Positions 8,013 through 26,097 of a stretch of 64,000 bases of DNA are shown one piece after another. Source of the stretch: Acholeplasmataceae bacterium (GTDB lineage Bacteria; Bacillota_I; Bacilli_A; Acholeplasmatales; Acholeplasmataceae). The notes beneath the pieces are model-generated. The model searched no databases. It had not been told where the DNA came from and saw only the letters and a list, made by a program, of their open reading frames with translations. Numbering within the stretch: the stretch's first letter is position 1; the number at the start of each line of letters is the position of its first letter. The stretch covers positions 248,001 through 312,000 of the forward strand of contig JAIOQX010000002.1 of NCBI GenBank assembly GCA_021108415.1. Direction: 5' to 3'. Position numbers and translations under genes: made by a program.

Positions 8013-11000
8013 ATGAAGCAATTCTTTTTTGCGTGTGTAACAATGACTATAATGTTTTTACTAATTGGATGTGTGAAATCACCCAATGATATTTTAGATA
8101 ATATTCCAGAAATCAAATTATACGGTGATGCACAAATGACGATTGCACATGGTAGTGAATTTATTGATCCAGGTGCATTTATCACTAATGAAGAAAACAA
8201 TCTAATCACTATAACAGGTACTGTAGATACACAGACTCCAGGAACATATGTGATTACTTATGCTTTCACATATAATCAAATCATCTATGAAGTTATTAGA
8301 ACAGTAATTGTTGAAACAGCCGATACCATCACATTTTCGCTTAATGGTGATCGAGAAATCGATATTGAACTCGGCCAAAGTTTTGTTGATCCAGGATATA
8401 CAATTAGTGATACATCTATAGATGTGACAATAACTGGTGAAGTCGATACGACAACTGTTGGAACATATACACTTACATATACCGCAAATCAAATCAGTTT
8501 AACACGTCTAATCCATGTTTTTAAGCCTATCTATTATGAGATAAATTCAACTCATATATCAGATGATTGTGTAACTTTGAATCTATATACAACAAACCCT
8601 TATAGTTTTTATGAGACTTTAAAAGTGCAAATTTATCAACAAAATGTATTTTATGATGAAATCGATTTAATTGATGGTTTCAATTCTATTGAATTTAATC
8701 ATTTAGATCGTGGTTTTGATTATGAATTGATCATATATGCCACATACATCATAGGTGATGATACATTTAGTGAAACTGACTCCATTGCATTTTTTAACAT
8801 TTTTGAAATCGAAATTCCTTTAGTTGAAACTTCAAATTTCGTTGTTGAATCTACTTCTATTGCATTTGATTATCAGATTAATGATGATTCTGATCTAACA
8901 ACTGATGTTAATATTTATGTATTAACTGATTTAAATCAAGTAAATCAAGCACTTAATCTAGATGTATCCAATGATAGTGTTTATTTTGATAGTCTATTCC
9001 CAAATGTGACCTATGATATTTTTATTGAAGTAACTTATCGACTAGATGATCAAGTTCAATATATCGAAGAACATATCATAAAAACAACTCCACAAGAAAT
9101 TGATCCAAGCATCGGTGTATCTCTTAGTGATGTTAATTTTGATATCAGTAATGATTTATACACCACTAGTTTTATTATCGATAATCCAAATAATTTGACA
9201 TATTTTTTAGATGCAATGTTATCAGATGATACGATGATTCCTGAATCACTAGCTTCTGTCACTTCACCATTTAGTTTCCAAAGTATACCTGATGATCAGA
9301 TAAAAACACTAACGTTGACACTTATGTATTTTGATCAACTTGATGAGATGGTTGTTGATGTATTCTACTATACATATACGCCAGATATCTATATTGCTCC
9401 AACAGTTAGTTTGAACAACATAGTCGTTATTGATAATCAAATATCTTTTGATTATTTGATTGATGATCCTAGTTCTAGGGTCAATACTATTCAAGCTTAT
9501 CTTTATTTAAACGACATACAAGTAGATAGCAAAACTGGACTTTCTTCATTAAGTGACACTCTTGTATTTGATAACTTAGATTATGACACTTTATATGCAT
9601 TTGATATTAAAGTAAACTATGTAGATGAGTTTGGTGTGACACAATCAATATATGCCCTAGGTCAAGCAACTACCGATGAACAAGAAATAATAGAACTCTT
9701 TGAAATTATTAGTTTTGAAACGGATCAAGATACCTATGATTTAGATGAAGTAGGTTATTTACTCATTACGATATCTAATCCTGAAAATTATCCCATTGAA
9801 GATGTCTATTTTGGCTCTCAGTCAAGACCTTTTACAGTCGAAGGTAATGTCATTAAAGTCTTACTAGAAACAGGTTATGAAACAACATATGAAAGAAACT
9901 TAAGTCAGATTTATTACACAGTTGATTCTATAAGAACATTAGAAACTATTTATACGAATTTCACTTATACAGTTGCAGATATGTCTGAACCTATGATTCC
10001 AACATTAATAGAAATTAGACCAGAATATGATTATTTTGATAGTAGCGATTATCAAGGTCAGACTCAACTTAATAGTTATGTTGATTTTATCTTTGACAAT
10101 CCAGACGATATTGATATTAAGTCAATTACATTAACCAATTATTCAGAGTGGCAATGGATTACTAAAAATAGTGTGAGTACGAATCAAATCGTTAGATATG
10201 ATATGATATTTAATGAAACATTAGAAGATTTTAGTGTGGATAGTTTTGTCTATACATTAGAGGGTATTGATTATACTGTTCATTTAACTGATTTAGATCA
10301 TAGAGATTCACACTCAGAATATTGTGATTCAATTAAATATTTAACAACAGTTACTGATTTGATTGAAATGGTTCAAATAGGAAGTTATGAATGCTATATT
10401 TTAACTCAAGATATTACCGTTGGATCTAGCTATGATTGGGATGATATAACTGATGGAGCAATCATCTCAGACATCAGAGTTTATGGAAATGGATATCAAA
10501 TTAGTGGAATCAATATTGCCTATGATAGTACAATTATAGATGTAACTTATGCTGGATTGTTTGCACAACTAGAAGATTCTTACATATATGATTTAACTTT
10601 AGATGCTTTATCAATTGATATTCCAAATGCATCAAAGCATATGTATGTTGGTGGGATTGCAGGAAAATTAAGCAACTGTCATTTAGAACATATCAACGTC
10701 ATCGGTGATATCACTTTAGAGCATGTTACAGAAATATCATTAGGTGGGATTGCAGGTGTCGGTATAGATAATCAAATCTATATGAGTTCAACCGATATTA
10801 ATTTCACAGGATCTTTGATGTATAATTATATCGTTGATTTTACATATGTTGGTGGCCTAGTTGGTCTATCTAGTGATGATTTATATAGAGTGTCAGTTAA
10901 AGGAGATTTTAATCTTATTGATGGTTCAACCAATTATAATTCATCAATAGGTGGATTAGTTGGTAAATTAACTCATGGATCGATTGATCATGGATATATG

Positions 11001-11468
11001 ATTACTACTTTTGCAAAAACGATGCAAGCAAATTATGTTGGTGGTATTGTAGGTATCATGGATACTGAATCATTCATTAATCATGTATATTCAAATAGTC
11101 TAATAAGAAACGAATTATCAATTTTAGATGGTGCAGCAACTGGTGGTTTAGTGGGTTATCATAAAGCAGGTATTATTCAAAACTCATTTTATACAAATGC
11201 CATTTATGGATCTAGTTCAAACACTGGTTTACTTGTTGGTCTTCAAGAACTAGAAGCTTCTATCATTAATTCATATCATGCAAGCACTGCAACATATAAT
11301 GATGGTTCAATAATAACACCAATAGATGATACTTTTGAGGGAAATCATGAAATCAGTTCTACTGCAACATTTAGAGATAAAGACTTCTATATAGAACTTG
11401 GATTTTGTGAGTCGATTTATGATCTAGAAGATTTAGTTTATCCTACTAAATTACCCCTGTTCAAATAA
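8013..11468 (+). CDS. large surface lipoprotein with Ig-like and GLUG-like repeats
   Basis: About 1151 residues. Signal MKQFFFACVTMTIMFLLIGC with Cys20 marks a lipoprotein on the outer face of the membrane. Two DUF5011/HYR-like Ig domains follow (about 35-95 and 107-170; both carry the 'G..F.DPG' and 'PGTY.ITY' or 'VGTYTLTY' marks), then several beta-rich, fibronectin-like repeats to about residue 760, then at least six GLUG-like units (about 850-1130) recognised by GG[IL][AV]G followed by a strand, as in YVGGLVGLSSDD and TGGLVGYHKAG. Architecture suits adhesion or polymer binding. No LPXTG motif. The second ATG is preferred because AGGAGG lies 6 bases before it. Composition is acidic, Asp/Tyr-rich. 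Confidence 0.8.
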   Translation: MKQFFFACVTMTIMFLLIGCVKSPNDILDNIPEIKLYGDAQMTIAHGSEFIDPGAFITNEENNLITITGTVDTQTPGTYVITYAFTYNQIIYEVIRTVIVETADTITFSLNGDREIDIELGQSFVDPGYTISDTSIDVTITGEVDTTTVGTYTLTYTANQISLTRLIHVFKPIYYEINSTHISDDCVTLNLYTTNPYSFYETLKVQIYQQNVFYDEIDLIDGFNSIEFNHLDRGFDYELIIYATYIIGDDTFSETDSIAFFNIFEIEIPLVETSNFVVESTSIAFDYQINDDSDLTTDVNIYVLTDLNQVNQALNLDVSNDSVYFDSLFPNVTYDIFIEVTYRLDDQVQYIEEHIIKTTPQEIDPSIGVSLSDVNFDISNDLYTTSFIIDNPNNLTYFLDAMLSDDTMIPESLASVTSPFSFQSIPDDQIKTLTLTLMYFDQLDEMVVDVFYYTYTPDIYIAPTVSLNNIVVIDNQISFDYLIDDPSSRVNTIQAYLYLNDIQVDSKTGLSSLSDTLVFDNLDYDTLYAFDIKVNYVDEFGVTQSIYALGQATTDEQEIIELFEIISFETDQDTYDLDEVGYLLITISNPENYPIEDVYFGSQSRPFTVEGNVIKVLLETGYETTYERNLSQIYYTVDSIRTLETIYTNFTYTVADMSEPMIPTLIEIRPEYDYFDSSDYQGQTQLNSYVDFIFDNPDDIDIKSITLTNYSEWQWITKNSVSTNQIVRYDMIFNETLEDFSVDSFVYTLEGIDYTVHLTDLDHRDSHSEYCDSIKYLTTVTDLIEMVQIGSYECYILTQDITVGSSYDWDDITDGAIISDIRVYGNGYQISGINIAYDSTIIDVTYAGLFAQLEDSYIYDLTLDALSIDIPNASKHMYVGGIAGKLSNCHLEHINVIGDITLEHVTEISLGGIAGVGIDNQIYMSSTDINFTGSLMYNYIVDFTYVGGLVGLSSDDLYRVSVKGDFNLIDGSTNYNSSIGGLVGKLTHGSIDHGYMITTFAKTMQANYVGGIVGIMDTESFINHVYSNSLIRNELSILDGAATGGLVGYHKAGIIQNSFYTNAIYGSSSNTGLLVGLQELEASIINSYHASTATYNDGSIITPIDDTFEGNHEISSTATFRDKDFYIELGFCESIYDLEDLVYPTKLPLFK

Positions 11469-11480
11469 ACTATATGATAC

Positions 11481-11514
11481 AAAAAACACTTTAGATGATC
11501 TAAAGTGTTTTTTT
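11481..11514. terminator. bidirectional terminator
   Basis: Stem AAAAAACACTTTAGA / TCTAAAGTGTTTTTT, short loop, T-runs on both strands; serves the surface lipoprotein gene and the convergent SulP gene. Confidence 0.9.
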
Positions 11515-11538
11515 AATTTAGTCTATTTAAAATGATGA

Positions 11539-13206
11539 TCATGCATCTCTATTTGTTTTTATAAAAGCCACTGCTTCTTCAATGGTCTTAAACATATGAT
11601 TACTACCTATTACATCAATCAAATTAGCTTTTTGTAATGCATGGAAAGGTTGTGTTCTCAATCCTGTGATTAAAACCGTGATATGTTTAGATTGACATAT
11701 CTTAAGCGAGGTATTAAAAGAATGTAGTGCTGTTGCATCAATTGCTGGTACATGTTTCATTCCGATAATTAAATATTCTATTTTTGAATCTAATTGATTA
11801 ATAACTTCTATATATTTAAATGCTGCACCAAAAAAGAATGGTCCATTAATCTGATACATTTTGACACCTTCAAGTATAGGATATTTTTTATTCTCATTTT
11901 TAAATGCAGCTTCTGAGTTGTCTTGATTTTCTGTAGCATCAAGATTTTTAATGGATACATCAGACACATCACTCATCCGCTTCATAAATAAAAACATCGA
12001 CATAACAAATCCAACTTCTAAGGCAACGACTATATCAATGGTAATCGTCATAATAAAAGTTGTTAATAAGATCGCGACATCACTTTTTGGTGATTTTAAC
12101 AATCCTTTAAACTCTCTCCACTCACTCATGTTATATGCAACCACAAATAAAATTGCAGCTAGAGCTGTAAGTGGTACAAGAGAAATTAAAGGGACTAGAG
12201 AAACCAATATAATTAATAATACAATAGAATGAATCATACCTGCAATAGGTGTTCTTCCTCCGTTTTTAATGTTAGCAACAGTTCTTGCTAGTGCACCCGT
12301 AACAGGAACACCACCAAATAATGCTGTGCCTATATTTGCAGTTCCTTGAGCGATTAATTCCATGTTTGAATTATGTTTACTACCTATCATTCCATCAGAT
12401 ACTACAGCTGATAACAACGATTCAACTGATCCTAAAAATGCAATAACAAAAGCTGGTCCAATTAAAAGTTTTATTGTATCTAGTGTAATGTTAGGAACAC
12501 TAAATTGAGGTAGACCAGCTGATAGCGCACCAAATTTAGTACCAATCGTAGCAACATCAAAATCAAATATAAATACAATTAGTGCTGAGACGATTAAAGC
12601 TATTAAAGTTGATGGTATTTTTTTGCTTATTTTTGGCCAATATATAATGATAAACAAACTTAACAATCCTATCCCAAAAGTAATCAAATCAATGTTAAAG
12701 ACATTTTGTCCAAATGCTTTCCATCTCTCGATGAAATCTAGTGGGACATTTGCAATGCCTAATCCAAAAAAATCATTGATTTGTGTAGATAAAATTACAA
12801 ATGCTATACCACTGGTATATCCTGTAATCATAGGATATGGAATAAATTTAATCATGGTTCCCATCTTAAATAATCCTAAAAAGATCATGATCAGACCCGC
12901 CATGATCATCGCAATGAATAATCCATTCATACCAAATTCAGCAATCACACCAAACACAATGACCATAAAAGCCCCTGTTGGACCCCCTATTTGAACTCTA
13001 CTACCACCTAAAAAAGAGATGATAAATCCACCGATAATTGCAGAATATAATCCAGCTTCAGGAGAAGCTCCTGATGCTACAGCTAATGCAATGGATAAAG
13101 GTAGTGCAATGATTGCAACAATACTGCCTGCTATGGCATCTTTTATAAATTGTGATTTAGTATATGACTTCATTACTGAAAATAATTTAGGCTTTAATTT
13201 TGACAT
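11539..13206 (-). CDS. SulP family anion permease with STAS domain
   Basis: Secondary transporter of the SLC26/SulP family, 555 residues, multi-pass membrane protein. The N-terminal family signature is visible as AIIALPLSIALAVASGASPEAGLYSAIIGG near residues 28-57, followed by LGGSRVQIGGPTGAF; the cytoplasmic STAS domain covers about 440-550 with the strand IGMKHVPAIDATALHSF. Members carry sulfate, bicarbonate or dicarboxylates; the substrate cannot be told from sequence alone. Start chosen at 13206 because GAGGA sits 7 bases before it; an upstream in-frame ATG at 13218 overlaps that site. Monogenic unit with its own strong promoter. Confidence 0.88.
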   Translation of the reverse strand: MSKLKPKLFSVMKSYTKSQFIKDAIAGSIVAIIALPLSIALAVASGASPEAGLYSAIIGGFIISFLGGSRVQIGGPTGAFMVIVFGVIAEFGMNGLFIAMIMAGLIMIFLGLFKMGTMIKFIPYPMITGYTSGIAFVILSTQINDFFGLGIANVPLDFIERWKAFGQNVFNIDLITFGIGLLSLFIIIYWPKISKKIPSTLIALIVSALIVFIFDFDVATIGTKFGALSAGLPQFSVPNITLDTIKLLIGPAFVIAFLGSVESLLSAVVSDGMIGSKHNSNMELIAQGTANIGTALFGGVPVTGALARTVANIKNGGRTPIAGMIHSIVLLIILVSLVPLISLVPLTALAAILFVVAYNMSEWREFKGLLKSPKSDVAILLTTFIMTITIDIVVALEVGFVMSMFLFMKRMSDVSDVSIKNLDATENQDNSEAAFKNENKKYPILEGVKMYQINGPFFFGAAFKYIEVINQLDSKIEYLIIGMKHVPAIDATALHSFNTSLKICQSKHITVLITGLRTQPFHALQKANLIDVIGSNHMFKTIEEAVAFIKTNRDA

Positions 13207-13246
13207 GAAAATCCTCATTAATCTTAATACGTATATAACCTCTTAA

Positions 13247-13275
13247 ATAGTACGCTTGGATATGTAAAATGTCAA
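13247..13275 (-). promoter_or_regulatory. promoter of sulP-type gene
   Basis: -35 TTGACA (13270-13275), 17-base spacer, -10 TACTAT (13247-13252) on the minus strand, about 40 bases before the chosen start. Confidence 0.75.
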
Positions 13276-13298
13276 TATCATTTTAACGCTTTGCCCAC

Positions 13299-13327
13299 AA
13301 AAAAAGACTCTATTTATTTAGAGTCTT
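13299..13327 (-). terminator. terminator of SAP-tailed membrane protein gene
   Basis: AAGACTC / GAGTCTT stem with 10-base loop; seven A residues on the plus strand give the T-run on the minus strand. Confidence 0.8.
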
Positions 13328-13347
13328 CTTTATCAATTCAATTATAC

Positions 13348-14187
13348 TTATTTCTTGTTAAGCTGTTCTTTTAATCTAATAAGTAATTGTGCTTTATTCA
13401 ATTGACTAACTCCTTCAAGATTTCGCTCTTTTGCTATTGCTTTTAATTCTGGAAGTGTTTTATCATCAAGATTAATCTTTTGAGTTTCAATCACTTTCTT
13501 TTTTTGTTCTATTTCTTTTTGTAAAGATTCTGTTTTTTCAATCTTCTTTTTTTGAACTTCTGCTACTTTATCCACTTTCATTTCAAGCTTTTCTAATTTT
13601 TCTTCATTTTTTTCTTGTTTCTTTTCAATCTTCTCTTGTTCTTTTTCATTTTTCTTTATTTGCTCTTTTGCAATTCTTTTTTTCATAAATGGTTTAATCC
13701 CAGCATACATAAAAACTGCACCTACAATAAGAAATAATATACTTACTGTAATCACTATAAATGACACACTATCTAGTGGATAAAACATGAAAAATGCACC
13801 TAGAGTCACATAACCTATGTTTAAAATATATTGAGTTAATTTAATCTTTCTAGTCGCAATATAGTTTATCAATAGATAAGATACACCTCTGATATAAACG
13901 ATTAATCCAATAAAGAGTTCAACATGATCTTTTAGATAAATCAATAGCCCAGCAAAAACAATATCTAATATCAACTCAATGACTAAAATAAGTGTCGCAT
14001 TCTTACTCACTATTTTTTTATATGTATAGATAAATCTTTTTAAAGATAACAAAATAAGTACACTACCAATAAATAAAGGTAAAAAATCTTCTACCCATCC
14101 CAATATGTATCCGACTATGGATACGACAACTAAAATAACACCAATGACTATATTTAAATATTGGTTCTTGAATACAATTTTTTCCAT
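13348..14187 (-). CDS. membrane protein with coiled coil and C-terminal SAP/Rho-N-like domain
   Basis: 279 residues in three parts: about six transmembrane helices (10-165) resembling the DUF308/HdeD fold; a highly charged Lys/Glu coiled coil (about 170-240); and a C-terminal SAP or Rho-N-like unit, LPELKAIAKERNLEGVSQLNKAQ, at about 248-272, a helix-extended loop-helix usually used to bind nucleic acid. The arrangement suggests a membrane protein whose cytoplasmic stalk can touch DNA or RNA; this role is inference. Monocistronic: own RBS (GAAGG) and own terminator. No enzyme motif is visible. Confidence 0.65.
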   Translation of the reverse strand: MEKIVFKNQYLNIVIGVILVVVSIVGYILGWVEDFLPLFIGSVLILLSLKRFIYTYKKIVSKNATLILVIELILDIVFAGLLIYLKDHVELFIGLIVYIRGVSYLLINYIATRKIKLTQYILNIGYVTLGAFFMFYPLDSVSFIVITVSILFLIVGAVFMYAGIKPFMKKRIAKEQIKKNEKEQEKIEKKQEKNEEKLEKLEMKVDKVAEVQKKKIEKTESLQKEIEQKKKVIETQKINLDDKTLPELKAIAKERNLEGVSQLNKAQLLIRLKEQLNKK

Positions 14188-14297
14188 TATATACCTTCTT
14201 TCATATATATATTATACCATTTATATGAGTGACTTAATAATAGACCACATTTATAATCTTTCTTATATCATCCTATCCATGAATCATTACTGATTTG

Positions 14298-14306
14298 TGA
14301 TATACT
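14298..14306 (+). promoter_or_regulatory. extended -10 promoter of nitroreductase gene
   Basis: TGATATACT matches the extended -10 pattern TGnTATAmT; no good -35 is seen. It lies about 50 bases before the start. Confidence 0.5.
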
Positions 14307-14354
14307 AAAATTGATGAAATCAAATTAATTGATTAAATATAAAAGGAGCTATTA

Positions 14355-15191
14355 ATGAATCTATATGAAGCAATCTCAAAAAGAATCAGTGTAAGAACAT
14401 ACGAGAAAAAAAGCATTGATCAATTTGACATAAAAACCATTAAAAACATTCTATCTAAATATGAATCAATCAAAGGTCCCTTTGGTCATTCTTTTGAGTT
14501 TAATTACAGTCAAAACAATTCTGATGATACAAACGGAAAAAAAATTGGAACATATGGACTTTTAAAAAATGTCCCAGCTTATATCGGGGGCGTTTGTCAA
14601 AACTTTAAAGACGCTATCATAGATTATGGATATGTATTTGAACATATCATATTAGAATTGACAGCATTAGGATTTGGAACGTGTTGGTTGGGTGGTACTT
14701 TTAAAAGAGATGATTATAAAAAAGATCTAAAAGTTAATCAAATTATTCCAGCTATATCACCTGTTGGATATCCATCAATCAATCGGTCAATTGCAGAAAA
14801 GATGTTAAGACGAGCTGCAAATTCAGATCATAGATTACCTTTTGAACAGCTATTTTTTGATATGTGTTTAAATCCTTTGTCTGAAGATTTTAATGATTAT
14901 ATAACTGATAGTCTACTTCTAATAAGAAAAGGCCCAAGTGCATCTAATAAACAGCCTTGGAGGATAATTGTAGACAAAGATAATCTTATCTATCATTTAT
15001 ATTTAGAAAGAACACCTAATTACGCTAAAATGTTAAACTACGATATCCAAGCATTGGATATAGGAATCGCAATAGCTCATTTTGAAATTAGTCTTAAAAA
15101 ACATATGATTTCATATAAAAAAGAAATATTAGAAAATCATCCTAAAAATGAGCATTTCGAATACATAATTTCTTTTCAAAGTGATAAATAA
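14355..15191 (+). CDS. nitroreductase-family protein (TM1586-like)
   Basis: 278-residue FMN-type nitroreductase. The N-terminal signature AISKRISVRTYEKKSID (residues 5-21) is the FMN-phosphate binding region of the family; the centre has GFGTCWLGGTFKRDDY near residue 112, and the second half repeats the pattern with LLIRKGPSASNKQPWRI near 195, where SNKQPWR corresponds to the family SxxNxQPWR motif. The length and two-lobed layout match the TM1586_NiRdase group, in which one chain makes both halves of the usual dimer. Physiological substrate unknown. RBS AAAGGAG 8 bases before ATG; no operon partner. Confidence 0.8.
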   Translation: MNLYEAISKRISVRTYEKKSIDQFDIKTIKNILSKYESIKGPFGHSFEFNYSQNNSDDTNGKKIGTYGLLKNVPAYIGGVCQNFKDAIIDYGYVFEHIILELTALGFGTCWLGGTFKRDDYKKDLKVNQIIPAISPVGYPSINRSIAEKMLRRAANSDHRLPFEQLFFDMCLNPLSEDFNDYITDSLLLIRKGPSASNKQPWRIIVDKDNLIYHLYLERTPNYAKMLNYDIQALDIGIAIAHFEISLKKHMISYKKEILENHPKNEHFEYIISFQSDK

Positions 15192-15235
15192 CAATTTCTA
15201 TCTATTGATATATGGCTTAATATAGCAATATATCA

Positions 15236-15264
15236 TTGTTATTGTTGTAAGTTCATTGTATACT
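15236..15264 (+). promoter_or_regulatory. promoter of lipoprotein gene 15297
   Basis: -35 TTGTTA (15236-15241), 17-base spacer, -10 TATACT (15259-15264). Confidence 0.6.
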
Positions 15265-15296
15265 AATATAGTAGTTTATGCATTAGGAGGTATGAA

Positions 15297-15995
15297 ATGA
15301 AAAAAAGAATACTAATTACTATTTTACTGATCAGTCTTTTGTTAAGTGGATGTACTCAATTAAGTGATACACAAAAAGAGTTGAAAACATGTATTGATTA
15401 TTTAATTGCAGGAGAGACATCTGATTCATGTGATACAAACACAAGAAATCAATTGGTTGTAACACTTGCATCTGAAGTATCTGATTCCTTTGATTTTGTT
15501 GATCAACAAATTGAAGTCACTTACACAAACTTTATCAAAGATTATTTTATATATAACATCAATTTCTTAGAAATTTCTGATCCTATAATGTCTATTGAAG
15601 ATATGTTTGACATCAGCAAACAAATCTATAAAGACTTTGATGAAATTTTAGATGTTACACAAGTAAGTACTGTTTCTTTTCAAATAGGTCTCGAGAGTTA
15701 TGTTTATACTTCATCAGATGTTTATTTTAATCTTAATATAGACGATATCATGTCAAATCTACTGATTCAAAAAGATAGTACACTTAAAGATATTCTAGAT
15801 ACCTCTATTATTAATTATGGAAAACTTACACTTCAGTCATTACACTACACCATTCAATTAGATCTTGATTTTTTAGAAAAAACTTATAGCAACATAACCA
15901 TCACAACTAAATCCTTTGATGCATCCTTGAATGCTATGGATACTAAAACATTAGTCCAAGATTACTTAGAGGATCAAGGATATCAAAGCACATAA
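15297..15995 (+). CDS. hypothetical lipoprotein
   Basis: 232 residues, not recognised. Signal MKKRILITILLISLLLSGC with Cys19 marks export and lipidation. The mature protein is acidic, with two further cysteines (CIDYL near 38, SCDT near 51) close together that could form a disulfide. A repeated beta-strand/helix pattern in the second half (VSFQIGLESYVYTSSDVYF) is typical of small surface lipoproteins but gives no function. RBS AGGAGG is 8 bases before the ATG, and a terminator follows directly, so it is a single-gene unit. Confidence 0.75.
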   Translation: MKKRILITILLISLLLSGCTQLSDTQKELKTCIDYLIAGETSDSCDTNTRNQLVVTLASEVSDSFDFVDQQIEVTYTNFIKDYFIYNINFLEISDPIMSIEDMFDISKQIYKDFDEILDVTQVSTVSFQIGLESYVYTSSDVYFNLNIDDIMSNLLIQKDSTLKDILDTSIINYGKLTLQSLHYTIQLDLDFLEKTYSNITITTKSFDASLNAMDTKTLVQDYLEDQGYQST

Positions 15996-16012
15996 TGATG
16001 ATTGTTAAAAAT

Positions 16013-16034
16013 AAAAAAGGCTAAGCCTTTTTTT
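16013..16034. terminator. bidirectional terminator
   Basis: AAAAAAGGC TAA GCCTTTTTTT; short stem with T-runs on both strands between convergent genes. Confidence 0.85.
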
Positions 16035-16045
16035 ATTGAACACTA

Positions 16046-16390
16046 TCAGTTATTGATATTGTATAATAACAAATCTTTATATAAGTCATAGGGAAAAGGT
16101 TTGTTAAGTGGTATTTGAATGGATCCCTTTCCACACTTATATGCTTTTAATTGATCTTTAAACACTACAATTGCCTTTGGCCCTGGATAAATACCAATAT
16201 GATTGGTAAAAGCCGCAAAATGAATCATATTCTTCTTCAAATGATATGTAGGCATTTGATAACTCATCTTTTCGATTAAATCTTTCGAACAAGACAATGA
16301 TAATTTACGTAATCGATTTAGAATCTCTTGTATATCTAAAGGAAAACTATGAATATATTGTTCAACAGTATCTATTTGAGTTTTTTCCAT
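16046..16390 (-). CDS. DUF1801 family protein
   Basis: 114 residues, full length for the DUF1801 (YdhG-like) family. Visible family marks: the N-terminal VEQYIHSFPLDIQEILNRLR helix, then EKMSYQMPTYHLKKNMIHFAAFTNHIGIYPGP (strand-turn region, residues 40-72) and a C-terminal GKGSIQIPLNKPFPYDL block. The fold resembles frataxin-like proteins and some members bind iron, but the biochemical role in this group is not settled. RBS AGGAAG before the ATG. Convergent with the lipoprotein gene, sharing its terminator. Confidence 0.8.
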   Translation of the reverse strand: MEKTQIDTVEQYIHSFPLDIQEILNRLRKLSLSCSKDLIEKMSYQMPTYHLKKNMIHFAAFTNHIGIYPGPKAIVVFKDQLKAYKCGKGSIQIPLNKPFPYDLYKDLLLYNINN

Positions 16391-16446
16391 CTTTATTCAC
16401 TTCCTATCTCATATATACTATATCATGTAATTCAATAAATTATATT

Positions 16447-16474
16447 TTGTAACACTTTAAAAATACGTTATAAT
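16447..16474 (+). promoter_or_regulatory. promoter of GyrI-like gene
   Basis: -35 TTGTAA (16447-16452), 16-base spacer, -10 TATAAT (16469-16474). Confidence 0.65.
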
Positions 16475-16508
16475 ACAAGTAAATCATTTATTAAAAAAGA
16501 GGGATTAT

Positions 16509-17156
16509 ATGAAATATGAATGGCGAAAAAATGATAAAGCTTTATATATACCAAAAACTGATCCACAAATCTTAACCATAAAATCTTATCCATATATTAA
16601 AATATCTGGAAAAGGTAATCCTAATAGCCAATCTTTCCAAAAAGATATAGAAGTTTTATATGCACTTTCATATGGATTAAAAATGGCACCTAAACAAAAA
16701 ATAGATATCAAAGGATACTTTGAATATGTCGTTTTTCCTTTAGAAGGTATATGGAGTTTAACAAAAGAGGGCATCAACCTATTTAATCAAGGTCAATCAA
16801 TCATTTCTCTTAAAGATCACTTCTCTTATGAGTTAATGATTAGACAACCAGATTTTCTCACCAAAGATCTCTTTGAGTTTATAAAAATGCGCGTCCATCA
16901 GAAAAAAGCAAATGATAATCTATTAAATGCTGAGTTTTTTATCTCTGATGAAAAACTCATTTGTCAAGCGCTTCATATCGGTAGTTTTGATGATGAACCT
17001 AAATCATTTAAAAAAATGGAAGATTATGCTCAATCTTTAGGATATACAAGAGCATCAAAAGATCACACAGAAATCTACATCAGTGATCCAAGAAAAACAT
17101 CTGTCGATAAATTAAAAACAACACTTCGATTTGAAATCATCAAAAATATTCATTAG
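16509..17156 (+). CDS. GyrI-like small-molecule-binding protein
   Basis: 215 residues resembling stand-alone GyrI-like (SOUL/BacTRIP fold) proteins. The N-terminal part YEWRKNDKALYIPKTDPQIL and the strand YPYIKISGKGNPNSQSFQKD (residues 28-47) match the group, as do YFEYVVFPLEGIWSL (about 77-91) and the late DDEPKSFKKMEDYAQSLGY segment (158-176). These proteins bind or hydrolyse small hydrophobic molecules, and some give antibiotic resistance. No DNA-binding domain is fused. RBS GAGGG 5 bases before ATG; single gene followed by another small gene with its own promoter. Confidence 0.78.
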   Translation: MKYEWRKNDKALYIPKTDPQILTIKSYPYIKISGKGNPNSQSFQKDIEVLYALSYGLKMAPKQKIDIKGYFEYVVFPLEGIWSLTKEGINLFNQGQSIISLKDHFSYELMIRQPDFLTKDLFEFIKMRVHQKKANDNLLNAEFFISDEKLICQALHIGSFDDEPKSFKKMEDYAQSLGYTRASKDHTEIYISDPRKTSVDKLKTTLRFEIIKNIH

Positions 17157-19963: not shown

Positions 19964-21124
19964 CTATAATATATTTGATGAATCTATTTCATTTGTTTCT
20001 AAATAATTTGAAAACCTAACTAAAGCTTTATCTATTTGATTCTTTAATTTTTTTGTCATTTTGATTTGTGGTTCTAACCACAAATGAATGACTTTTAAAG
20101 GATCGTTTTTTCTTTGTTTATCAAATTCTATTCTACCTATCAAATCTGACCCTTTTAAGATAGGTAAGACATAATATCCGTATTTTCTTTTTTCTTGTGG
20201 GACATAGACTTCCCAAGTATAATCAAAATCAAATATCTTTAAAATCAATGCTCTATCCCATAGCATATTATCCAATGGAGCAAGAAATGAGATCTGATCC
20301 ATAACTTCTACTGGATAAGATAATGCGGTAGTTGGTATATAAAATATCTCTGATATACCATCTATTTTAACTTCTTTTATCATATCTTTATCTATTAATA
20401 CTTTTAAAAACTTTTCTCTATGTTTTTTTAAGTAAATATATAGTCCACTAAAAGCTACACTGTACTTGCTCCAAACCAATCCCATGGATTGAATCCTTCT
20501 ATATAAGTGGTATTCAATAAACTCATCTAATGTAGAAAAGGGATTATCTTTTTTTATGTTTGGATGTAGTTTTTCAAATGTATGATACTTCTTTTGTGTG
20601 TTGTGTCTACTTTCGATCCCAACATCACCTTTATGAAATAAGTAGCTAATTGCTGCACTTGAAGCTTTTGTATGTCTCCATTTATGTTCTACTGTATCTC
20701 CTAATTTGATTTTAGAGGATAGGATAGGTCCATTTTTGTCTATTAGATTGAATACATCATCTATGATGTGTTCAAACTCTAGATCAAGATAGCGTTTAGA
20801 TGATTTGATTTCATTTTTTGCACGATCTTCTCTGATGAGATTTAATTTATCATAATCTTTAATATGATAAATACACATTTGTTTATCCCATCCATCTATT
20901 AGATATCTATCTTTATAAAGTGCGTTATATAGGATCTCTTTTTTAAAGCTAGAAACTCTTGATTGGAGTACTAATTCTGGATTAGTCCCAACAACGTTTA
21001 GTGGGTCATATTGAATTGCGTTAAGACGAGTAAAAACATCATTAACTGAGTAATGATGTTTTGTGTTAATCATATGATAGTTGACTAGATATGCTTTTGC
21101 TTGTTCTTTAGTCCAATTAATCAT
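19964..21124 (-). CDS. HTH_42 family DNA glycosylase, AlkX/YcaQ-like
   Basis: 386-residue winged-helix protein of the HTH_42 family, whose members excise bulky alkylated bases or unhook interstrand cross-links. The catalytic Q-x-D type motif of the AlkX/YcaQ branch is visible as Gln38-Tyr39-Asp40 in NAIQYDPLNVV; AlkZ enzymes have Q-x-Q here. Further marks are DGWDKQMCIYH (78-88), HKWRHTKASSAAISYLFHKG (wing helices, 146-165), and FLAPLDNMLWDRALILKIFDFDYTWEVY near 275-302. RBS AGAGG 6 bases before ATG. First gene of a probable operon with the DsrE and membrane protein genes. Confidence 0.82.
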   Translation of the reverse strand: MINWTKEQAKAYLVNYHMINTKHHYSVNDVFTRLNAIQYDPLNVVGTNPELVLQSRVSSFKKEILYNALYKDRYLIDGWDKQMCIYHIKDYDKLNLIREDRAKNEIKSSKRYLDLEFEHIIDDVFNLIDKNGPILSSKIKLGDTVEHKWRHTKASSAAISYLFHKGDVGIESRHNTQKKYHTFEKLHPNIKKDNPFSTLDEFIEYHLYRRIQSMGLVWSKYSVAFSGLYIYLKKHREKFLKVLIDKDMIKEVKIDGISEIFYIPTTALSYPVEVMDQISFLAPLDNMLWDRALILKIFDFDYTWEVYVPQEKRKYGYYVLPILKGSDLIGRIEFDKQRKNDPLKVIHLWLEPQIKMTKKLKNQIDKALVRFSNYLETNEIDSSNIL

Positions 21125-21181: not shown

Positions 21182-21211
21182 AAAAAAGGGTTGATATTCT
21201 TACATCAAACC
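21182..21211 (-). terminator. probable terminator of the helicase-Nudix-Mrr cassette
   Basis: Minus-strand hairpin GGTTTGAT / ATCAACC with one bulge followed by CTTTTTT, 20 bases after the Mrr-like gene. Confidence 0.5.
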
Positions 21212-21230
21212 TTCATGCACAAAAACTAGA

Positions 21231-22262
21231 TTATGACTTTATAAATTTTTCTATATCAGTTAATAAATATTTACCCCATAAATCCGTTTTGACTTTTCCT
21301 ATTCCAGAAATATTCATTAGTTCGTCTTCTGTTTTCGGAACTTTATCTACAATCTCTTCTAAAGTTTTATTATTAAAAACATTATAAAGTTTATCAATCT
21401 TGTTATATGTTGCTATTTTCTTTCTTGTTTCTTTTAAGAATTTGACAAATTCTTCTTTGTTTATCTCTATTATAGGATTTATTTTTTCCGAATTCGATTC
21501 AACTTCTAAGAATTCTCTGATTTTATGAATTAAATATGGACCAAACAGTTTTACGTTGTCTTCGGTAAAACCCTTAATCTTTTTTAACTCTTCCAAAGTG
21601 GTTGGTTTTTTTATTATGATGTCTTTAATTGTTCTATCGTTATAGACTAAATATATAGGTGAAATTTTATTATATTTTGCTATGTTTTTTCTCTCTAATT
21701 TAAGCATGTCAACAAATTTACTATTCTCTTTAAATGACTCTTTTTTCTTTTTACTAGATTCAAAAGCAATATTACTATAATTAGATTGATTGACATCTCT
21801 ACCCAATTTTTCGTCAATATCTTTAATTATTTCTATGATATCATCTCTATAATACGCTTCTATCTCTTCATTTTCTATATAGGCGATACCTCTACTAGTT
21901 ACTTGTTGTTCCTCAGCAGATGTAAAAAGAATCAAGTTTGGTTTTCCAGATTCACTTCTGGAAATTCCATAGTGTGGAACACCTTTTTGCATTTTCATTA
22001 AATCATTTTCTCCAAGTATCGTTTTAGGTCCATATCTTTTACATTGCACACCAAATCTTACCATTTCATCATTTGATTTCCACAATAATATATCGACACC
22101 AAAATCATTTTTTTCTGTTATTTTACCAGAATATCCTGCAAATTCTTTCATATATTTAAAAATAAACATCTCAAATTGCTCACCTGATAACTCATCAACT
22201 TCTTTTATAGATTTTGGATAATTATATTCTCTTTTCTTTCCTAGCTGTATTTTTATTGCCAT
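21231..22262 (-). CDS. Mrr-type restriction endonuclease with two HRDC domains
   Basis: 343 residues. The N-terminal domain (20-150) is an Mrr-like PD-(D/E)xK nuclease: helix LSGEQFEMFIFKYMKE, then Asp57 in DFGVDILL and Gln73-x-Lys75 in GVQCKRYG, the QxK variant typical of Mrr. Two HRDC-like nucleic-acid-binding domains follow (about 184-257 and 268-340), each with a 'KYNKI..Y.V.N..T' start and a helix-hairpin 'GI/GF' turn (SGIGKVKTDLWGKY). Predicted to cut DNA, possibly modified DNA. Last gene of a cassette behind the Nudix gene (about 38-base gap) with RBS AAGGAG. The nuclease-HRDC fusion is uncommon; role in defence is inference. Confidence 0.75.
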   Translation of the reverse strand: MAIKIQLGKKREYNYPKSIKEVDELSGEQFEMFIFKYMKEFAGYSGKITEKNDFGVDILLWKSNDEMVRFGVQCKRYGPKTILGENDLMKMQKGVPHYGISRSESGKPNLILFTSAEEQQVTSRGIAYIENEEIEAYYRDDIIEIIKDIDEKLGRDVNQSNYSNIAFESSKKKKESFKENSKFVDMLKLERKNIAKYNKISPIYLVYNDRTIKDIIIKKPTTLEELKKIKGFTEDNVKLFGPYLIHKIREFLEVESNSEKINPIIEINKEEFVKFLKETRKKIATYNKIDKLYNVFNNKTLEEIVDKVPKTEDELMNISGIGKVKTDLWGKYLLTDIEKFIKS

Positions 22263-22300
22263 ACTTTTTTACTCCTTTTTCTTGTATTATGAAAATTTAC

Positions 22301-22684
22301 TTATTTTAGTTTACGTAAAATAGGGATATCTGCATCTGCAAAATCCATTTCTTTCATTTCTTCTATTGTAGCCCACCTAGAATCAAGATGTTCTGACAAT
22401 ACTAAATTACCTTTTATAATCTCACATTCAAACGCATGCATAATCAATATAAATCCTTTATATTCATGATTAACAGTCATTATAAAGTCTTTTACTTCTA
22501 TTTTAGTATCAAGTTCTTCAAATATTTCTCTTTTCAGAGCTTCTTGCATTGTTTCACCAACTTCAATCTTTCCACCAGGAAACTCCCATTTTTTAGCAAG
22601 TTCTCCTTCATCTTTACGTTGTGCACAAAAATATCTGTTTCCATCTTTAATAACTGCAGCAACTACTTCAATTGTCTTTTTCAT
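22301..22684 (-). CDS. Nudix hydrolase, MutT/(d)CTP pyrophosphohydrolase-like
   Basis: 127 residues. The complete Nudix box is visible from GGKIEVGETMQEALKREIFE to EEL (residues about 37-59), preceded by EFPGG and by CAQRKDEGE, as in MutT and CtpA-type enzymes that hydrolyse oxidised or non-standard nucleoside triphosphates. The ATG at 22684 is preferred: AAGG lies 9 bases before it, while the ATG-like start at 22693 is too close. It overlaps the helicase gene end by about 17 bases, so translation is coupled. DUF3427 helicases are often fused to or followed by Nudix enzymes, so this pair is probably functional together. Confidence 0.85.
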   Translation of the reverse strand: MKKTIEVVAAVIKDGNRYFCAQRKDEGELAKKWEFPGGKIEVGETMQEALKREIFEELDTKIEVKDFIMTVNHEYKGFILIMHAFECEIIKGNLVLSEHLDSRWATIEEMKEMDFADADIPILRKLK

Positions 22685-25601
22685 TGTTATCATCCTTTTT
22701 TTCTTTAATTATAAATCTACTATATATGCTATCAGGAACTTTATTTAATAACTCAAATATAAAACGGATGGGTTTATTTCCAGTATACTCTAATACATTC
22801 ACTTTTCCAAAATATGTATACCCCTGAACTTGACCATCTTCTTGTTTATTCTTTCTGACAAGAAGATGAAGATCTATACCCATCTTTTTGTGATTTATAA
22901 ACCTGACACCTGATTTACTATCTTGTGCAGAACTGTTTTGAGATTCCCATTGGAAAGTTTTTTGATCTATAAATTTATCTTTATAGTCTATACTTTCTTT
23001 TACATCTTTTTTTAATAAATCTACAAATAGATAATAACTATCTCCATCTGGAATAACTCCAGATCCTCTAAATGCCGATATTTTATTCTTGTATCTAATA
23101 ACAACTGGAACATCTAACATTGAGTAATTATAATAAAGTTTAAATCCATTATAAAGTTTCACATCATTGAATTCATGCATATATCGTGCAAGTCCATAAG
23201 AGATGCTTTCTTCCATAAAAGTCTTTAAAGTCTTATTATTATTTATTAATTGACGAATATTTTTTTTGAAATAAACTTCATCATTCTGATAATTAACCAT
23301 CTTTATATATCTTTTAACAGTATTTACATCGAAATAAGCAAAATCAAGATAGTCAAAATAATATTCTAGTTTTTCATAATTATCATAATTGTATTTTTTA
23401 AGTTCGTGAATTAATGACTCAATATTTACTAATCTATCTTTTAGTAACATGTTTAATATCACAAAAAGAACTGGTTGTTTAAGTGGCAGCATGTCATCAA
23501 CAAATTTAAGTAATTTATTTTCATCCTCACTCAGCTTATAAAATTGTTCATCAGTTTTACTAATCATTCTTAATACATATTTATAATAAGTCTTTTCCTT
23601 TTTAATAAATCTAATCGGATCAAATCCATCAAATCCAAACTGCATAAGCTTAGGATAGATCAAATTCTTATTTGATTCTTTTAATTTACTTAAAAAATTC
23701 ATATAGTATTCATCTAAAAATTTAGTTGCATTAAAGTTAACTGCTTCTAGTTGCTGAAGGATTCTTTCTTTCGATTTTTCTTGAAGTAAAATAAATGTAT
23801 CTCCAGGTATATCAAAAAAATCATTCTTTGTAGATACTATCAAATCATCTTTATCATATGCATTTTCTCCAGCTAAAGCTAAAGGAATCATGAATGTTTT
23901 CATATGATTACCAATAAAGTCAAGGACTGTTAAATACTCTTTATACTGATAATGTCTCAAGCCTCTACCTAGTTGTTGTGTAAATATAATTGATGATTCG
24001 GTAGGTCTTAACATTAAAATTGTATTAACACTAGGTATATCAATACCTTCATTAAAAATATCAACAGTAAACACACAAACTAAAGGGTCAAATTCATTAC
24101 TTAACCTAATAATAGCATCTTCACGTTCTTCTTCGTTATTACTACCTAATAAATATATTGAAGTTATACCTCTTTGATTAAATTGATCCGACATATATTT
24201 AGCGTGCTCTATATTTACACAGAAACCTAGTATTTTTCTTTTTTTACCAGCATATGGATATTTATTCATATGCTCAATAACTAAATCAACTCTAGCTTTC
24301 AAATTTAGCTTTTTCGCAAGTTGATCTATACTTTTAAAATTATAATCTGATAAATCCGTACTTATATCATCAATACCATAATATACAAATGGAACGACTA
24401 ATTTATCTTCCAAAGCTTTTCTTAATCTAGTTTCTATAGCAATATTGTAGTCAAAATACTCATATATGCTTATATTGTCTGTTCTTTCAGGTGTTGCTGT
24501 CATCCCAAGGGTAAATTTAGGAATAAAATAGTCTAAAGCAGTTTGATATGTTCCTGCTGCAGAGCGATGTGCTTCATCAATGATAATATAATCAAAATGA
24601 TCTGATTTAAATAAACCTAAGATTTCTATTTTACTTATCATTGTGTTTGTTGCGAATAAATAATCTGAATCTAAATCTTTTATATTACCAGATAATATAC
24701 CCATTTTGATATCTGGCATGATTGTTTTAAATGTTTTCATTGCATCTTTCAGAATCTTTTGTCTATGAGCAACAAACAATACTCTTTTAGGATTCATTTG
24801 AGAAACATCAAAAGCAGCCAAATAAGTTTTACCTGTACCAGTAGCTGCAATGACTAAAGCTTTATTTTCACCTTGTTCCCTTAGAAGTCTTAATCTTTCA
24901 CAAGCTTGTTCTTGCATAGTATTTGGTTTTATTTCATTACTAAACTCTATGCTTAATTGTTCTTTTAATTTATTTTCATCAATTTCCATATAATCGGCAA
25001 TCTGAGACAATAACCCAACATTTTTACTTTGCTTGATAAATGATAAAATGCTTTCTAAGATATTATTTTCTTTAAAATCTTTAGCCATGTAATAAGATTT
25101 TGAATACATTTCGATGAATTCTGCAGTTAAATCAGTTGATTTATTCCAAAGATCGTCAAATGCTGCTAACACTTCATCAACGAAAGGATGCTTTTTAGAT
25201 AGAATCTGTACATTCCATTCTTGATTAGATTTGAGAGCACTCATTGAAATATTTGATGAGCCAATATAAATCTTATAGTGGTCATCCATTTCAAATATGT
25301 ATGCTTTTGTATGAAATCCATTTTTTAAAACTTGAGTATCATAGATTCTAGTTTCAATATTTGAGTTTTTATGTAGCATTTTTAATGCTTGGGGATCTGT
25401 ACCATTCATATAATTTGTTGTGATAATTCTTCCTGGTTTCAATACATCTTTAGTTAATATTGAGAGTGCTCCAGAATTAATAAATGCAACCGATATTTGA
25501 TATCGGTTGCATACTAAAAAAGATTCCTTTAGTTCATGATAAAATGAACGTCTTTGTGAATTTGTTATTAACTTTAAACTTTCAATTTGTTGCATATCCA
25601 T
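22668..25601 (-). CDS. PLD-nuclease / SF2 helicase / DUF3427 protein
   Basis: 977 residues in three parts. The N-terminal phospholipase-D-like domain has one HKD motif: His97-x-Lys99 and the trailing GSSN at 114-117. The SF2 helicase core has motif I ATGTGKT (253-259), DEAH at 342-345, TATPERTD near 369, and motif VI QQLGRGLRHY near 540. The C-terminal DUF3427 region (about 600-970) has its family marks FQWESQNSSAQDSKSG and GYTYFGKVNVLEY. Such proteins are found in bacterial defence neighbourhoods and probably act on DNA. The start at 25601 follows AGAGG by 5 bases. It opens a tight operon with the Nudix and Mrr genes. Confidence 0.88.
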   Translation of the reverse strand: MDMQQIESLKLITNSQRRSFYHELKESFLVCNRYQISVAFINSGALSILTKDVLKPGRIITTNYMNGTDPQALKMLHKNSNIETRIYDTQVLKNGFHTKAYIFEMDDHYKIYIGSSNISMSALKSNQEWNVQILSKKHPFVDEVLAAFDDLWNKSTDLTAEFIEMYSKSYYMAKDFKENNILESILSFIKQSKNVGLLSQIADYMEIDENKLKEQLSIEFSNEIKPNTMQEQACERLRLLREQGENKALVIAATGTGKTYLAAFDVSQMNPKRVLFVAHRQKILKDAMKTFKTIMPDIKMGILSGNIKDLDSDYLFATNTMISKIEILGLFKSDHFDYIIIDEAHRSAAGTYQTALDYFIPKFTLGMTATPERTDNISIYEYFDYNIAIETRLRKALEDKLVVPFVYYGIDDISTDLSDYNFKSIDQLAKKLNLKARVDLVIEHMNKYPYAGKKRKILGFCVNIEHAKYMSDQFNQRGITSIYLLGSNNEEEREDAIIRLSNEFDPLVCVFTVDIFNEGIDIPSVNTILMLRPTESSIIFTQQLGRGLRHYQYKEYLTVLDFIGNHMKTFMIPLALAGENAYDKDDLIVSTKNDFFDIPGDTFILLQEKSKERILQQLEAVNFNATKFLDEYYMNFLSKLKESNKNLIYPKLMQFGFDGFDPIRFIKKEKTYYKYVLRMISKTDEQFYKLSEDENKLLKFVDDMLPLKQPVLFVILNMLLKDRLVNIESLIHELKKYNYDNYEKLEYYFDYLDFAYFDVNTVKRYIKMVNYQNDEVYFKKNIRQLINNNKTLKTFMEESISYGLARYMHEFNDVKLYNGFKLYYNYSMLDVPVVIRYKNKISAFRGSGVIPDGDSYYLFVDLLKKDVKESIDYKDKFIDQKTFQWESQNSSAQDSKSGVRFINHKKMGIDLHLLVRKNKQEDGQVQGYTYFGKVNVLEYTGNKPIRFIFELLNKVPDSIYSRFIIKEKKDDNNEKDN

Positions 25602-25605
25602 CTGA

Positions 25606-25627
25606 CCTCTAATCTTTATTAGATTAG
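25606..25627 (-). promoter_or_regulatory. hairpin next to ribosome site of helicase gene
   Basis: Arms CTAATCT and AGATTAG with a 5-base loop lie between the queH-like stop and the helicase start; the AGAGG ribosome site touches the 3' arm. It may limit helicase translation or be remnant junction sequence. Confidence 0.4.
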
Positions 25628-25638
25628 AAACGGGTTTA

Positions 25639-26097
25639 TTAGTACAGTCCCAATTTCTTGATTATCTCACAACTCTCAAGAAACCCCTCCCTAAAATCTT
25701 CATCATAAAATGGTATATCAAACATCTTTTCATATCTATGACCAATTTCTAGCACTTTCTCATGATCCATACTTGGATTAGAGAGTAAACTAGTCGTAAT
25801 TGCATCATATCCTAATTCTTTTGCTAATTCAAATGTTCTTTTAATTCTTAAATCATATCTTGTTAAATCAAATGCTTCTAGGCTATCTACTTCTACTTTT
25901 AGATCTGGATAGTAAAAGACATTAAATCCTTGTATTTCTGAAAACTTTTTAACGCTATCTGCTATTTTCTTAAATTCTTCGTCTGTATGAATATTTGGAT
26001 TATAATATAATCCATCAACATCAACACCTTTATCCATTAGAGTTCTAATAGGTAAGGCTGAACAAGAAGCACAACACATATGCATTAAAAGTTTCAT
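25639..26097 (-). CDS. queH: QueH-like epoxyqueuosine reductase, C-terminus missing
   Basis: 152 residues of the QueH (DUF208) family, which makes queuosine in tRNA by reducing epoxyqueuosine. Present: HMCCASCSALPIR at 6-18 with the metal-binding cysteines Cys8, Cys9 and Cys12; YYNPNIH; RYDLRIKRTFELAKELGYDAITTSLL (80-105); FDIPFYDEDFREGF. The protein ends in KKLGLY followed by two stop codons, just where relatives continue with a short tail containing a Cys-x-Cys motif. No cysteine codon is found in any nearby frame. So this copy may be inactive or altered. It overlaps the flavin oxidoreductase gene by 4 bases. Confidence 0.78.
   Translation of the reverse strand: MKLLMHMCCASCSALPIRTLMDKGVDVDGLYYNPNIHTDEEFKKIADSVKKFSEIQGFNVFYYPDLKVEVDSLEAFDLTRYDLRIKRTFELAKELGYDAITTSLLSNPSMDHEKVLEIGHRYEKMFDIPFYDEDFREGFLESCEIIKKLGLY

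Follow-up and report, generated by a model that had tools for sequence, protein, structure and literature searches.

Two overlapping genes in a 64,000-nt stretch of Acholeplasmataceae genomic DNA (hereafter the window) encode a homologue of the type IV restriction enzyme SauUSI and a Nudix protein that adjoins such enzymes across many phyla. We consider it fairly likely that the two form a module directed against 5-modified cytosine, in which the Nudix enzyme would clean 5-modified dCTP from the nucleotide pool and the Mrr nuclease gene beside it is an unrelated neighbour; substrate, target and benefit are those that we infer. The pairing suggests a defence that acts both on DNA and on nucleotides. 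Since type IV enzymes destroy DNA containing modified cytosine, their hosts must avoid accidental self-modification. If the reading is right, a paired remover of modified dCTP explains how they do so, nucleotide-pool control becomes part of restriction, the phage defence candidate PDC-S07 gains a testable function and substrates are predicted for many unnamed Nudix genes.

Gene content of the locus

All three genes of the cassette sit between queH and an AlkZ-like gene (Table 1). The first-pass annotation of this DNA had described a tight run of three minus-strand genes with an overlap between helicase and Nudix; all of the open reading frames are present with domains confirmed by Pfam, and the overlap amounts to 26 bp, or to 17 bp should translation begin at the internal ATG at 22684. 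A gap of 38 bp separates the Nudix and Mrr genes. The terminator placed at the end of the run was not recovered: a terminator scan gave none 3′ of the Mrr gene, and the sole terminator-like hairpin (25512–25484) falls within the 5′ portion of the SauUSI-like gene. This element (25484–25512, minus strand) is a perfect 13-bp palindrome with a 3-nt loop. Similar palindromes occur at the same place in two other loci (L054 in genome G019 and L055 in G008) and are absent from four (L052, L056, L058 and L059); the SauUSI remnant of a same-genus relative, G004, ends at the palindrome site, before a run of T.

Table 1 Genes of the cassette and its edges (window positions).
Feature	Position	Strand	Description
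queH	25639..26097	(-)	Conserved left edge of the defence hotspot
SauUSI-like type IV restriction enzyme gene (977 aa)	22668..25601	(-)	PLD nuclease, SF2 motor and DUF3427 (target recognition)
Nudix gene (130 aa), PDC-S07/NudG-like	22301..22693	(-)	Probable 5-methyl-dCTP pyrophosphohydrolase, substrate predicted from relatives
Mrr_cat nuclease gene with two C-terminal HRDC domains (343 aa)	21231..22262	(-)	Hotspot neighbour
AlkZ-like gene	19964..21124	(-)	Second hotspot edge, as in G004

A SauUSI-like restriction enzyme

The 977-aa protein carries the Pfam domains PLDc_2, ResIII, Helicase_C and DUF3427 (1.3e-49). The architecture given earlier (PLD-helicase-DUF3427) is therefore correct, but its SauUSI-like identity had been missed: the closest PDB match is SauUSI (7clg, E = 1.6e-136), with both the PLD and the ATPase-TRD stretches aligned, and the matching PADLOC profile is mREase_IV (2.1e-137). 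Foldseek with the predicted model also ranked 7clg first, at ~29% identity in the alignment; the whole model is of modest confidence (pTM 0.43) and was used solely to confirm 7clg as the nearest structure. PLD, SF2 helicase-like and DUF3427/TRD domains are all found in one chain, as in SauUSI-like enzymes, and the nuclease motif H97-x-K99-x4-E104 (HxKx4E) and the ATPase motifs (Walker A GTGKT and DEAH) that mark this group are intact in the translation. H97, K99, G255, K258, D342 and E343 are invariant across 14 homologues. By sequence, then, the protein is a homologue of SauUSI-like type IV restriction enzymes. SauUSI is ATP-dependent, cuts DNA containing 5mC or 5hmC, and has both an SRA-fold target domain and a dimeric PLD nuclease; its homologues had already been listed for Tenericutes (PMC7913695). 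Judged from this homology, cleavage by the window enzyme would likewise depend on 5mC or 5hmC. A search of its own genome for a C5-methyltransferase (PF00145) found none.

A Nudix protein related to 3GWY and NudG

The 130-aa protein contains a NUDIX_4 domain (1.6e-20) and matches the PADLOC profile PDC-S07 (3.7e-50); its Nudix box is intact, as in PDC-S07/NudG-like proteins, and the box residues are invariant in alignment A2. Its nearest solved relative is 3GWY of B. fragilis (7.1e-34), E. coli NudG (2rrk) ranks third, and both score above E. coli MutT. In a screen of 74 compounds, the best substrate of 3GWY was 5-Me-CTP, a ribonucleotide, and NudG acts on 5-methyl-dCTP at 1.3e6 per M per s versus 4.7e4 for CTP (PMC5158307). 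Because these relatives prefer 5-methylated cytidine nucleotides, the window protein is probably a 5-methyl-dCTP pyrophosphohydrolase. Two facts count against this assignment, namely that 3GWY works best on a ribonucleotide and that its gene is not itself beside SauUSI. The base-recognition residues of NudG, checked by hand, were dropped as substrate evidence since MutT relatives share them. A tree of the Nudix family, poorly resolved over 135 columns and with truncated-helicase loci labelled as unlinked, was not used as evidence.

Linkage of SauUSI-like and Nudix genes

The earlier remark that DUF3427 helicases often travel with Nudix enzymes was strongly confirmed from both sides. Among 51 SauUSI-like loci examined in a sample of 392 Bacillota genomes, 41 have an adjoining Nudix gene, in varied arrangements (on the same strand, 17 lie downstream and 11 upstream; another 12 are on the opposite strand and 1 is fused). 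For the reverse search, the 3GWY sequence alone was run against 84,980 species genomes; a SauUSI-like gene is adjacent in 48 of the best 80 of 303 loci, in records of Bacteroidota, Fusobacteriota, Bacillota, Pseudomonadota, Spirochaetota and a euryarchaeal bin, among others. When both sets are pooled, 74 of 76 same-strand pairs overlap or are at most 20 bp apart. Such a Nudix gene was found in none of 50 control loci around other genes, and each of ten genomes with a linked pair has exactly one, the adjacent one. Helicase and Nudix distances are correlated (Mantel r 0.48, versus at most 0.21 in 2000 permutations). Against the reading of a paired module counts the ~20% of SauUSI-like loci without an adjacent Nudix gene; of these ten, one (G008) is at a contig edge, and in two (G410 and G432) the genes are shortened or split. 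G410 and another genome, G414, have no such Nudix gene genome-wide at the threshold used. Together, these results mark the Nudix protein as a true partner of the SauUSI-like enzyme and support a two-gene module as the core.

Two unusual forms were seen in these searches: a natural SauUSI-like and Nudix fusion of 1100 aa (L061:7759-11061, minus strand, in G072) and a SauUSI-adjacent Nudix protein with a thioredoxin-like C-terminal extension (L107:8231-9235).

The adjacency itself has already been noticed: the Nudix component is catalogued in PADLOC as PDC-S07, MutT homologues were noted beside SauUSI homologues in Streptococcus (PMC7641849), and PDC-S07 accompanied type IV restriction in 23/23 S. 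suis cases (PMC12813430). The SauUSI paper makes no mention of Nudix (PMC7913695). Our literature search, which was incomplete so that an earlier statement is possible, found no published link of the SauUSI-Nudix pair to 5-methyl-dCTP.

A 5-methylcytosine theme around the Nudix family

The fetched flanks of the same best 80 of 303 relatives of 3GWY were scanned for methyltransferases and Vsr. A C5-cytosine methyltransferase and/or Vsr gene flanks 9 of the 32 Nudix loci without SauUSI versus 0 of the 48 that are SauUSI-linked (Fisher p 1.2e-4; some of these matches had gone into building the local profiles). Pfam independently confirmed each Vsr and three of the methyltransferases. At one locus (L215), Nudix, methyltransferase, EcoRII and Vsr genes follow one another; at two others (L210 and L235), HNH nuclease genes adjoin the Nudix gene. 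This Nudix family is thus found alongside systems for writing, reading or repairing 5-methylcytosine, in agreement with the substrates measured for its relatives.

This theme bears on whether the protein is an ordinary cleaner, of 8-oxo-dGTP or of nucleotides in general, that is linked to restriction genes for unrelated reasons. MutT-family profiles do match it and MutT-like entries are among its PDB matches, but 3GWY and NudG outscore E. coli MutT, the neighbourhood points to 5-methylcytosine, and an ordinary cleaner would not be so tightly tied to one restriction enzyme in many gene orders. We regard this explanation as improbable.

A defence hotspot after queH

The interval that follows queH is a hotspot for defence genes, occupied in some genomes by SauUSI and in others by m5C restriction-modification. 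In G004, the stretch from queH to AlkZ (L051, ~9921-16979) holds a 40-codon SauUSI remnant followed by C5-methyltransferase, HATPase, Z1 and DUF4420 genes; an intact Nudix gene, 70% identical, is kept ~12 kb beyond the remnant. In another genus, queH is followed by SauUSI in one genome (G008) and by a Z1 gene with two C5-methyltransferases in a second (G021). The proposal by the first-pass annotation of a mobile anti-phage or anti-plasmid module holds in so far as this is a swappable defence locus, its content varying between close relatives, with a helicase homologous to type IV restriction enzymes; it does not hold as a system of three genes.

SauUSI and C5-methyltransferases tend to exclude each other, though not strictly: 12 of 52 SauUSI genomes have both. 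Across all 392 genomes the exclusion gives p 4e-8, a value confounded by Mycoplasma-type families; p is 0.011 in a conservative test from which the genomes of families f6 and f7 that have a methyltransferase were left out. No such claim is made for the 101 nearest relatives, among which the difference is small.

In a broader reading, which we put forward tentatively, one Nudix family would be devoted, in bacteria and archaea, to the removal of 5-methyl-dCTP. Systems for writing, reading or destroying 5-methylcytosine would have recruited it, type IV restriction would thereby have a hitherto undescribed nucleotide-pool arm, and SauUSI-Nudix and m5C restriction-modification would replace each other at hotspots.

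An Mrr nuclease as chance neighbour

The 343-aa protein has an Mrr_cat domain (1.7e-8) and two HRDC stretches (1.8e-21), and the catalytic residues of an Mrr-type endonuclease (D57...Q73xK75) are intact and invariant in alignment A4. Whether it belongs with the pair was decided by its distribution. The first-pass annotation had suggested that the three genes make up a new defence system and had proposed a test of their co-occurrence across genomes. Among the nine genomes in which full-length Mrr-2xHRDC was found, only the window's own has the trio; three of the others (G007, G041 and G365) have SauUSI more than 470 kb away and the remaining five have none. The gene is likewise missing beside the 41 Bacillota SauUSI-Nudix pairs, its own genome excepted. 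A 69% identical relative in G057 (L053 5999-7830; see also L245) lies in a prophage-like region among phage-type structural genes, with an overlapping downstream gene that bears a second Mrr_cat domain; in IMG/VR a single contig matched, with the same genes as G057, and plasmid and phage collections gave no match. A single three-gene system could draw on the shared strand and the short gap, which make co-transcription of Nudix and Mrr possible, and both nucleases could be modification-dependent, the weak fold matches of the Mrr model (best E 1.9e-3) including MspJI and AspBHI. With SauUSI nearby in 1/9 genomes, and a close relative in prophage-like surroundings, we rejected this arrangement and consider it very improbable. 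We take the Mrr-2xHRDC gene to be an independent defence gene that came to lie in the hotspot, a chance neighbour of SauUSI-Nudix. A parallel architecture, a NERD nuclease-related protein with two HRDC domains, was seen in G073 (L038:1480-2823).

Proposed role of the pair

By analogy with SauUSI, the restriction enzyme would recognize DNA with 5-methyl- or 5-hydroxymethylcytosine through its DUF3427/SRA-type domain, after which the SF2 motor would translocate and the dimeric PLD nuclease would cut. The Nudix enzyme would convert 5-methyl-dCTP, and perhaps 5-hydroxymethyl-dCTP, to the monophosphate and so keep modified cytosine out of new DNA. The most likely benefit would be that nucleotides from degraded or phage DNA do not enter the host chromosome and expose it to SauUSI.

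Alternatively, the Nudix enzyme could itself attack, destroying the 5-modified dCTP of the phage, which would then be exposed to ordinary restriction if it made unmodified DNA and to SauUSI if it made modified DNA. The same adjacency and substrate evidence fits this proposal, and phage kinases for 5-methyl-dCMP and 5-hydroxymethyl-dCMP have been reported (PMC10742078), making infection a likely source of such nucleotides. We favour self-protection, and think destruction of the phage pool unlikely, because C5-methyltransferases and Vsr, too, have Nudix relatives beside them and because G004 kept its Nudix gene after losing SauUSI; pool cleaning is the simpler account.

Comparison with known systems

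The Mrr_cat protein shares its domain and D...QxK residues with Mrr-type restriction endonucleases but has two C-terminal HRDC domains, and SauUSI is not near it in eight relatives. The Nudix protein falls by sequence in the branch of NudG (Orf135) and B. fragilis Q5LBB1 (3GWY); their substrates are measured, whereas that of the window protein is predicted, and the 3GWY gene, in contrast to the window gene, stands apart from SauUSI. It also matches the profile of the PADLOC phage defence candidate PDC-S07, a Nudix protein co-localized with type IV restriction in S. suis, which is, however, catalogued as a single-gene candidate and is given no function in the literature consulted. With S. aureus SauUSI (7clg), the 977-aa protein shares a PLD nuclease with HxKx4E motif, an SF2 motor and a DUF3427/SRA-type C-terminal domain in one chain. 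SauUSI targets S5mCNGS, and the target of the window enzyme is predicted from homology; the window protein differs in being ~29% identical to SauUSI (Foldseek alignment) and in being encoded with an overlapping Nudix gene.
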